The notes beneath the pieces were generated by a model, which was given only the letters and a program-made list of their open reading frames with translations, did no database searches and was not told where the DNA came from. 64,000 nucleotides of DNA from Sagittula sp. P11 (GTDB lineage: Bacteria; Pseudomonadota; Alphaproteobacteria; Rhodobacterales; Rhodobacteraceae): contig NZ_CP021913.1 in the NCBI RefSeq assembly GCF_002814095.1, forward strand, positions 1,054,001-1,118,000, read 5' to 3'. Made by a program: the position numbers and the translations under genes. Positions within the stretch are counted from its first letter, which is position 1, and each line of letters starts with the position of its first letter. This document shows, in pieces, positions 34,071 through 40,363 of the stretch.

Positions 34071-34188
34071 TCGGCCCCCCGGCGCCGCGATCCCGATCCC
34101 CTCGGTCCGCCGACAGCGCACAGATACGCCGCTGACAGGCGACACACCTTCCCCCTTGCGTCCGGGCCCTCAACCTGTCATACGCCGT

Positions 34189-34311
34189 CTTGCTGCAGTT
34201 ACCACTATCGCCTCCCTGTCTCCCTCATCCGGCGACAGAGCATCGATTTTGCTCTGACCTACGCCGGACCGTAGCGATTTTGCGTGCGGTAAATCTATCA
34301 GGAGACACACG
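34189..34311 (+). promoter_or_regulatory. Structured 5' leader of cold-shock gene 1
   Basis: About 120 bases before the start codon match the leader at 34738-34857 nearly base for base over the block CTGTCTCCCTCATCCGGCGA and beyond. CAGAGCA (34236-34242) and TGCTCTG (34250-34256) form a perfect 7-bp stem with a 7-base loop. CTGTC (34216-34220) could instead pair with GACAG (34234-34238), which overlaps the first arm, so two exclusive folds exist. AGGAGA at 34300-34305 is the ribosome binding site. Confidence 0.65.
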
Positions 34312-34518
34312 ATGGCCACTGGCACCGTGAAATGGTTCAACACCACCAAAGGCTTCGGCTTCATTCAACCGGAATCCGGCGGCAAGGATGTGTTCGTGCA
34401 CATCTCTGCAGTCGAGCGCTCCGGCCTGACCGGCCTCGCCGACAACCAGAAAGTCAGCTACGAGCTGCAGACCGGCCGTGACGGCAAAGAGTCCGCAGGC
34501 AACCTCGAGCTGCTCTGA
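34312..34518 (+). CDS. cspA: Cold-shock domain protein, paralogue 1
   Basis: A 68-residue single CSD (OB-fold) nucleic-acid-binding protein. RNP1 is KGFGFI (residues 13-18) and RNP2 is VFVHI (27-31), with the surface aromatic residues W8, F15, F17 and H30 that stack on RNA. Such proteins melt RNA structure and act as RNA chaperones or antiterminators. It is identical to the 34858 product at 63 of 68 positions (differences at residues 3, 15, 21, 22 and 60). A long structured leader is typical for cold-induced csp genes, so regulation by temperature is likely. Confidence 0.96.
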   Translation: MATGTVKWFNTTKGFGFIQPESGGKDVFVHISAVERSGLTGLADNQKVSYELQTGRDGKESAGNLELL

Positions 34519-34522
34519 CGAC

Positions 34523-34570
34523 TCTGCCTTCGGGCAGAACCGGACGCAGGGAGAGTGCCCTCTCCCTGCG
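34523..34570 (+). terminator. Double hairpin after cold-shock gene 1
   Basis: TCTGCC-TTCG-GGCAGA (34523-34538) is a stem capped by a UUCG tetraloop, and CGCAGGGAGAG / CTCTCCCTGCG (34545-34570) is an 11-bp perfect stem with a 4-base loop. They start five bases after the stop codon. No U-tract follows, so they may end transcription or protect the mRNA 3' end. Confidence 0.6.
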
Positions 34571-34737
34571 GCTCGGGCGCAGACCGCCGCGCCCGATGTC
34601 TACGCCGCCGAAAAGAACGGCGCCAGACGACGCAGATTTGACGCTCAGGCCGAAAAGCGCCTGTCGCGCTGCGCGTTCAACACAACGTTAACGCAATCTC
34701 TCTTGCTCAGAATCACCAGATCTGAGATACGATTGCC

Positions 34738-34857
34738 CTTGCTACGTTACCAGATCGCCTACCTGTCTCCCTCATACGGCGACAGAGCACCGATTTTGCT
34801 CTGACCTACGCCGACCCGCAGCACTCCCGCGTGCGGAACAAGACAGGAGACATCACG
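34738..34857 (+). promoter_or_regulatory. Structured 5' leader of cold-shock gene 2
   Basis: This matches the leader of cold-shock gene 1. The same stem is CAGAGCA (34783-34789) / TGCTCTG (34797-34803); the only change within this hairpin is one base in the loop (T to C). The ribosome binding site AGGAGA is at 34845-34850 and the bases before the ATG are also alike. Sequence between the two genes outside the leaders is unrelated. Confidence 0.65.
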
Positions 34858-35064
34858 ATGGCCAAAGGCACCGTGAAATGGTTCAACACCACCAAAGGTT
34901 ATGGCTTCATCCAGCCGGATGAGGGCGGCAAGGACGTGTTCGTCCACATTTCCGCAGTCGAGCGTTCCGGCCTGACCGGCCTCGCCGACAACCAGAAAGT
35001 CAGCTACGAGCTGCAGACCGGCCGCGACGGCAAGCAGTCCGCAGGCAACCTCGAGCTGCTCTGA
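34858..35064 (+). CDS. cspA: Cold-shock domain protein, paralogue 2
   Basis: A 68-residue CSD protein with RNP1 KGYGFI and RNP2 VFVHI. Phe15 of the first paralogue is Tyr here, and residues 21-22 are DE rather than ES. It is a tandem duplicate of the gene at 34312, including the leader. The in-frame ATG at 34831 belongs to the leader; 34858 gives the family MAKGTVKWFN opening and is preceded by AGGAGA. The function is the same as above; separate regulation cannot be told from the leaders since they are nearly identical. Confidence 0.96.
   Translation: MAKGTVKWFNTTKGYGFIQPDEGGKDVFVHISAVERSGLTGLADNQKVSYELQTGRDGKQSAGNLELL

Positions 35065-38602: not shown

Positions 38603-40363
<1,761 letters not shown>

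Follow-up and report, generated by a model that had tools for sequence, protein, structure and literature searches.

The Sagittula sp. P11 genome carries, in a 64,000-nucleotide stretch (hereafter the window; contig NZ_CP021913.1, positions 1,054,001 to 1,118,000 of the forward strand), two tandem cold-shock genes that are each preceded by a leader of about 120 nt, which raises the question of whether these leaders act as RNA and how they would control the genes. The first gene (csp1, 34312-34518, + strand, as are all the leader features below) encodes a 68-aa protein with a single cold-shock domain (CSD) and the second (csp2, 34858-35064) encodes a 68-aa cold-shock protein that is identical to Csp1 at 63 of 68 residues, with five differences. 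Each gene has its own sigma70-like promoter and its own leader; the leader cores are near-identical, whereas the spacer from csp1 to the second leader gives a poor alignment with the sequence upstream of csp1. A first-pass annotation of this DNA had described the protein pair, the matching leader cores and the unlike spacer, all of which held up, and had proposed a group-specific leader that switches between two exclusive folds with temperature. We think it somewhat probable that the leader controls csp translation by means of a three-way junction closed by a helix (P1), with an alternative CUG:CAG pairing, and that the choice between the two is most likely shifted when temperature drops.

RNAalifold returned a three-way junction, unprompted, from the first alignments. 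In this fold, P1 pairs UGUCUCC with the Shine-Dalgarno (SD) sequence GGAGACA, P2 contains the hairpin of the first-pass annotation within a longer helix, and P3 is a bulged hairpin that precedes the SD. The leader elements span 34198-34314 (csp1) and 34746-34860 (csp2), each matched at 114.7 bits by our first covariance model (R1). The 5′ strand of P1, box B (UGUCUCC; 34217-34223 in csp1 and 34764-34770 in csp2), is assigned by covariation and folding and is a 7-bp complement of GGAGACA in both leaders (34301-34307 and 34846-34852), the 3′ strand of P1, which lies within the SD AGGAGACA at 34300-34307 and 34845-34852. P2 of csp1 (34229-34267) has an outer stem CCGGCG/CGCCGG (34229-34234/34262-34267) and an inner stem CAGAGCA/UGCUCUG (34236-34242/34250-34256); P2 of csp2 (34777-34813) has an outer stem CGGCG/CGCCG (34777-34781/34809-34813) and the same inner stem (34783-34789/34797-34803). 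P3, assigned by covariation, lies at 34268-34290 in csp1 (ACCGUA-GC, loop, GC-G-UGCGGU, with a bulged G) and at 34816-34836 in csp2 (CCGCA-GC ACUCCC GC-G-UGCGG). The CAGAGCA/TGCTCTG arms are indeed the same in both leaders, as had been claimed, and the sole change is in the loop, where CGATTT follows a T or a C; the overlap of a CTGTC/GACAG pairing with the first arm was likewise found in both leaders (GACAG at 34234-34238 and 34781-34785). The CGGCG/CGCCG extension of P2, the third hairpin P3 and a CTGTCTCC box complementary to the SD had not been part of the first-pass annotation.

To say how widely the leader occurs, we use family for Rhodobacteraceae, order for Rhodobacterales and class for Alphaproteobacteria. 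A plain DNA search with the leader matched few genomes (16/147, the source genome included), and we therefore used covariance models built from 19 leaders (R1) and from 106 leaders (R2). In the family, R1 found one to five copies of the leader in each of 251 genomes out of 295 (250 of 294 genera). R2 found it in 141 of 149 genomes sampled from the order, and the listed ones are all Rhodobacteraceae. Each model also matched 8 of 385 genomes sampled across the class, five of the eight being within the family. The matches outside the family include a convincing one (G512, 61.3 bits, ahead of a csp gene) and two near threshold at which no csp gene was seen (G422 and G594); G659 and G674 are further non-family genomes matched in this sample. 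A pattern scan of a named genome collection gave 39 stretches, with csp directly downstream in 38 and the 39th cut at the locus end. By title these organisms, Cereibacter species among them, are mostly Rhodobacteraceae or Rhodobacterales, an assignment that in part we presume; Pseudovibrio denitrificans in this collection carries a leader match of 64.6 bits. The leader pattern was not found in viral contigs.

The element is closely tied to csp genes. All 106 leaders of our third alignment (A3) are followed by a csp start (103 by pattern, and three, with the start shifted by two bases, by eye), as are 96/96 matches of our fourth alignment (A4), although only part of the R1 and R2 genome matches were taken as loci and many of these were chosen for a high score or a known csp. 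Among the best-scoring 30 CSD loci of the family, the element is present in 26 (E <1e-6), one match is weak, one locus is cut by a contig end and two are without it. Outside the family but within the class, none of 30 csp loci had a match at the leader position; one locus has a 22.5-bit match elsewhere, and one has a 17-nt, 8.4-bit match inside the csp gene. The csp upstream regions that we inspected have a common layout of GUUAYC, AUCG (box A), CUGUCUCC (box B), a hairpin, a bulged-G hairpin and the SD, with L005 and, in part, L002 and L022 as exceptions. The order-wide search that the first-pass annotation had called for thus supports the group-specific, structured leader proposed there, which lies upstream of csp in most of the sampled family genomes, and the base changes in it are compensatory, as described next.

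A4 contains 96 matches, 87 of which are absent from A3, giving 193 distinct leaders in all; for covariation we kept these 87 of the 96, after removal of A3 members and duplicates. In the 106 leaders of A3, 94.3% of the cells at proposed pairs hold standard pairs, as compared to 25.6-50.7% when the partners are slid, and there are 145 double changes as compared to 39.5 in shuffles. In A4, 92.7% are standard pairs and there are 142 double changes as compared to 34.1 in shuffles. Pairing is thus kept under arm changes, with compensatory swaps, which is what a structure-aware covariation check had been proposed to look for. In relatives, the inner P2 stem is most often CAGU/ACUG, and its fourth pair is U-A in 46 of 96 A3 leaders with letters there. 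A3 and A4 were both fitted to the structure, and significance was judged with a tree-based covariation test of our own (FastTree, per-column simulation, G statistic with average-product correction) rather than with R-scape itself. By this test, the covariation of P3 is very strong in A3, with E down to 1e-9 over all pairs and with five pairs at a two-set E <0.001 when the proposed pairs are taken as the set, and it goes beyond phylogeny in all four runs, including the 87 further leaders and a structure-blind alignment. P1 covaries at two of five pairs in A3 (E 0.005 and 0.035) and at three of five in the 87 other leaders (E 0.0012, 0.0027 and 0.037). The inner P2 stem covaries at one of four pairs in A3 (E 0.023) and at two of four in the 87 others (E 0.0085 and 0.042).

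These changes bear on the alternative that the leaders have no function as RNA and that their likeness comes from recent duplication or from signals at the DNA level. Although csp1 and csp2 are close paralogues, we give this almost no credence: the element is found in 250 of 294 genera with compensatory base changes, the promoter motif lies outside it, and the covariation of P3, in our view, refutes it. Putative sigma70-like promoters precede csp1 (34156-34184; TTGCGT at 34156-34161, a 17-nt spacer and CATACG at 34179-34184) and csp2 (34703-34731; TTGCTC at 34703-34708, a 17-nt spacer and GATACG at 34726-34731); a stricter sigma70 scan found no site before either gene. Among 191 of the 193 leaders, CTTG followed at 15-20 nt by xAT occurs upstream in 152, as compared to 66 of 2000 random windows; the spacing is usually 17 nt, the xAT mostly starts 15-20 bases before the element, and GCGAC follows the promoter-like pair just before the GUUA of the leader. 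The csp1 transcript would then start a few bases upstream of the leader element.

The partner of box B points to translation as what is probably controlled. By pattern we kept 147 of 168 csp upstream regions and used 137 of the 147 to compare box B with the SD and 119 of the 137 for the Fisher table. Box B contains TTCC in 10 of 15 leaders whose SD is GGAA as compared to 19 of 104 whose SD is GGAG (Fisher p = 2e-4), native box B:SD duplexes are predicted at –10.9 kcal/mol as compared to –9.7 kcal/mol when swapped, and box B can make at least five contiguous Watson-Crick pairs with the SD region in 88% of the 193 leaders, as compared to 30% when box B is shuffled, all three values being uncorrected for relatedness. 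Across the 106 leaders, the SD is predicted to be unpaired with a probability of 0.10, as compared to 0.26 with shuffled leaders, and in the window the predicted P1 probability is 0.98-0.99 for csp1 and 0.48-0.78 for csp2. The element could instead act on mRNA stability, with the fold shielding or exposing RNase E sites; csp mRNA would then be long-lived only in the cold, and any effect on the SD would be secondary. P3, a stable and strongly conserved hairpin, is in keeping with such a role, as is the title of a 2004 paper on the cspA mRNA of Rhodobacter capsulatus (see below), but an anti-SD box that tracks changes in the SD better fits control of translation (moderate evidence), and we regard the stability element as quite unlikely.

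The exclusive pairing noted in the window also has a counterpart elsewhere. In csp1, the alternative hairpin pairs CUGUC (34216-34220) with GACAG (34234-34238; hairpin 34216-34238), is exclusive with P1 and P2 and is predicted in nascent RNA; in csp2, it is predicted between CUGUC (34763-34767) and GACAG (34781-34785; hairpin 34763-34785). In relatives, this corresponds to CUG:CAG, box B with the 5′ arm of P2, each core pair of which can be made in 92-100 of about 105 leaders. For 84 of the 106 leaders we folded RNA that ends before the 3′ arm of P2; the alternative hairpin then has a mean probability of 0.81, as compared to 0.28 when the remaining bases are shuffled. At equilibrium in full-length RNA it nearly vanishes, with a weight of 0.01-0.06. 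The two exclusive folds of the first-pass annotation are therefore upheld only in part: CUG:CAG is a conserved pairing that nascent RNA is predicted to favour, but it does not covary (3 double changes as compared to 4.8 in shuffles) and carries little weight at full length. A stronger exclusive partner of the CTGTCTCC box, absent from that annotation, is the SD.

Box A offers a further set of partners. In csp1, box A (AUCG, 34207-34210) is complementary to the CGAU of the P2 loop and to a CGAU at the start codon; in csp2, the conserved box lies at 34754-34757. Box A and the P2 loop (34754-34757 and 34791-34794 in csp2) read AUCGA and UCGAU in most relatives and are highly conserved, and because both hold the self-complementary UCGA, a pseudoknot or an RNA dimer is conceivable. 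The pairing of box A with the P2 loop shows correlated change at its edges, without Watson-Crick compensation. Box A is complementary to the start codon in 74-102 of about 105 leaders for four core pairs; we rejected this pairing as a candidate helix, since its predicted probability is 0.13 and the 45 top-ranked covarying pairs in A3 include no pair of it. A kinetic, co-transcriptional cold switch of a new architecture would use all of these partners: the CAG arm would pair first with the CUG of box B and then with that of the P2 3′ arm, box A (AUCGA) would choose between the P2 loop, as a pseudoknot, and the start codon, and slow refolding in the cold would leave the SD and AUG open without any protein. 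We consider this fuller scheme less likely than not.

We then asked what folding predicts for temperature. When the 106 leaders are folded at equilibrium, the predicted probability that the SD is unpaired goes from 0.11 (5 °C) to 0.10 (42 °C). Because this predicted accessibility stays level over the whole range, melting as in a simple thermometer is not supported, and the temperature-responsive switch that the first-pass annotation had suggested is, on this modelling, not supported so far; a cold switch would have to be kinetic or protein-assisted, in the way described for E. coli cspA. In zipper-type RNA thermometers such as ROSE and fourU, the SD helix melts in the growth range and the anti-SD strand is weak, being U-rich or mismatched. 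In contrast, the anti-SD strand in the window is a perfect 7-bp complement and no melting of the SD is predicted. That the leader is a zipper of this kind, opening on warming, is very improbable: the SD is predicted to be sequestered by a complementary leader strand, as in a zipper, but no opening is predicted between 5 and 42 °C, and the sense of the response would be opposite to cold induction.

This flat response and the missing covariation of CUG:CAG weigh against the translational-control reading that we favour, as do the results gathered here. The predicted P1 of csp2 rises with temperature, from 0.48 to 0.78, and over the 106 leaders the mean predicted probability is only 0.53-0.58 for P1 and 0.39-0.45 for the inner P2 stem. 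In a comparison with other families that used 60 of 85 leaders selected by regular expression, the SD of other families' csp genes is also fairly closed (0.22-0.30 unpaired, 32 regions) and the AUG of our leaders is predicted to be 0.48-0.50 unpaired, with no special hiding (0.45-0.50 when the folding of the 106 leaders is included). The outer P2 stem has no significant pair among its four, in A3 and in the 87 other leaders alike. A structure-blind MAFFT alignment recovers P3 but has no P1 pair among its 22 best, and it gives three pairs, two of which involve box A, that lie outside every proposed helix (E 0.009-0.015). Off-helix pairs also appear in A3 and A4 (E 0.016-0.039), and because such pairs reach similar values, an E of about 0.01-0.04 is not decisive in our test. 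Because P1 is missed in the structure-blind alignment, its support comes from the structure-aware alignments and from the box B:SD statistics, which take no account of relatedness; P1 is less well supported than P3. Some highly conserved bases are also unexplained by the fold (the GUUA at the 5′ end, the GAC that ends the inner P2 stem, and in the P3 loop an A and a U).

Conserved sequences of this kind would be in keeping with a leader that sensed free Csp rather than temperature directly, with Csp binding at single-stranded box A, box B and the P2 loop and shifting the fold in a feedback loop. Such autoregulation would fit the highly conserved unpaired sequences beyond the helices and the presence of the element on several csp paralogues of one genome: there are seven CSD matches in the source genome and R1 finds the element on four of them, the two besides csp1 and csp2 scoring 74.9 and a weak 28.6 bits. 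In E. coli, CspA stimulates translation in the cold from the closed form of its own mRNA, but CspA-type proteins bind with low selectivity, which would hardly need such strict conservation (PMC9947658). On balance, we consider autoregulation unlikely as the main explanation.

Returning to translational control by a P1-closed junction, the mechanism that we propose is as follows. The whole leader of about 120 nt would be a cis-regulatory RNA family at the 5′ end of many Rhodobacteraceae csp mRNAs. In its three-way junction, which comparison supports, the closing helix P1 pairs the pyrimidine box with the SD, and closure of P1 would keep translation low. During transcription, box B may pair first with the 5′ arm of P2 (CUG:CAG), and if this fold persisted, P1 would be blocked and the ribosome site would be open. 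The choice of fold would most likely be shifted by a drop in temperature, with or without Csp proteins or helicases, and Csp would then be produced once structured RNA becomes a burden.

The leader resembles known systems in part. At gathering score, Rfam 15 has no match at the leader in the window or at 16 related loci. As regards a metabolite riboswitch, which would have a ligand-binding core and a gene related to the ligand, the leader thus matches no Rfam family at that score and the aligned leaders all precede csp. The cspA thermoregulator (RF01766) scores 37.6 bits at csp1 and 12.4 bits, in a partial match, at csp2, as compared to a gathering score of 78, and both matches lie mostly over coding sequence; at relaxed E, cspA alone among Rfam families reaches the leader region, again carried largely by coding sequence. 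Among the papers listed by literature searches, in some cases the best of many and mostly from outside subscription journals, none described this leader in Rhodobacterales. A 2004 paper by Jager et al. reportedly concerns, to judge from its title, temperature-dependent processing of the Rhodobacter capsulatus cspA mRNA. Because there is neither a gathering match in Rfam nor a description that we could find, we take this to be a leader for translational control of csp that has an architecture of its own, one that would work like E. coli cspA, possibly as a co-transcriptional cold switch. The closed form of E. coli cspA hides the SD and AUG, and the fold that forms during transcription in the cold leaves the SD exposed (PMC9947658). 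The window leader is likewise a structured 5′ leader of a csp gene whose closed form is predicted to hide the SD; unlike RF01766, it is itself a three-way junction closed by an anti-SD box.

Two other alphaproteobacterial cases are comparable. The cspA 5′ UTR of Agrobacterium tumefaciens (C1_109596F) is a 227-nt leader and proposed thermosensor that its authors matched to the Rfam cspA family, and we liken ours to it by description only (PMC3738593). The cspA and cspB genes of Caulobacter crescentus are cold-induced, and PMC8552747 cites a 2012 paper that, by its title, deals with how they are regulated post-transcriptionally; we claim no element shared with them. In Rhodobacterales, comparative genomics has yielded other structured cis elements: SAM/SAH before metK (PMC2864571) and uORFC-8-2 before cysS (PMC8632094). 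Our leader is of the same kind but, unlike both, stands before csp, and the term "csp" is absent from the main texts of these two surveys, as far as a term search of main text can tell (PMC2864571, PMC8632094).

Several observations concern the surroundings of the leader. Fourteen family genomes have paired leader matches spaced by about 440-490 bp, and the tandem layout is therefore not peculiar to the window. At the third leader-bearing csp of the source genome (L001 1843-1858, near G000:C1:611606), a run of 16 identical bases, G on the + strand and C on the gene strand, stands directly before the promoter-like CTTG and may reflect slippage or an assembly artefact. A relative's csp neighbourhood (L014 1283-1370, – strand) contains a match to the DUF3800-VII RNA (Rfam RF02967, 46.8 bits). 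In the window itself, 39872-40159 (+ strand) matches 5_ureB_sRNA (Rfam RF02514, 105.3 bits), a few kb from apparent urease accessory genes (open reading frames judged by eye), and a tRNA search of the 64 kb found none.

For this large bacterial group, which includes Cereibacter species, relatives of the laboratory model Rhodobacter sphaeroides, the leader provides a defined and searchable RNA family. The study of cold-shock regulation outside E. coli gains a concrete structural hypothesis, and one may suppose that the csp leaders of other bacteria came independently to the combination of SD hiding and an alternative fold.
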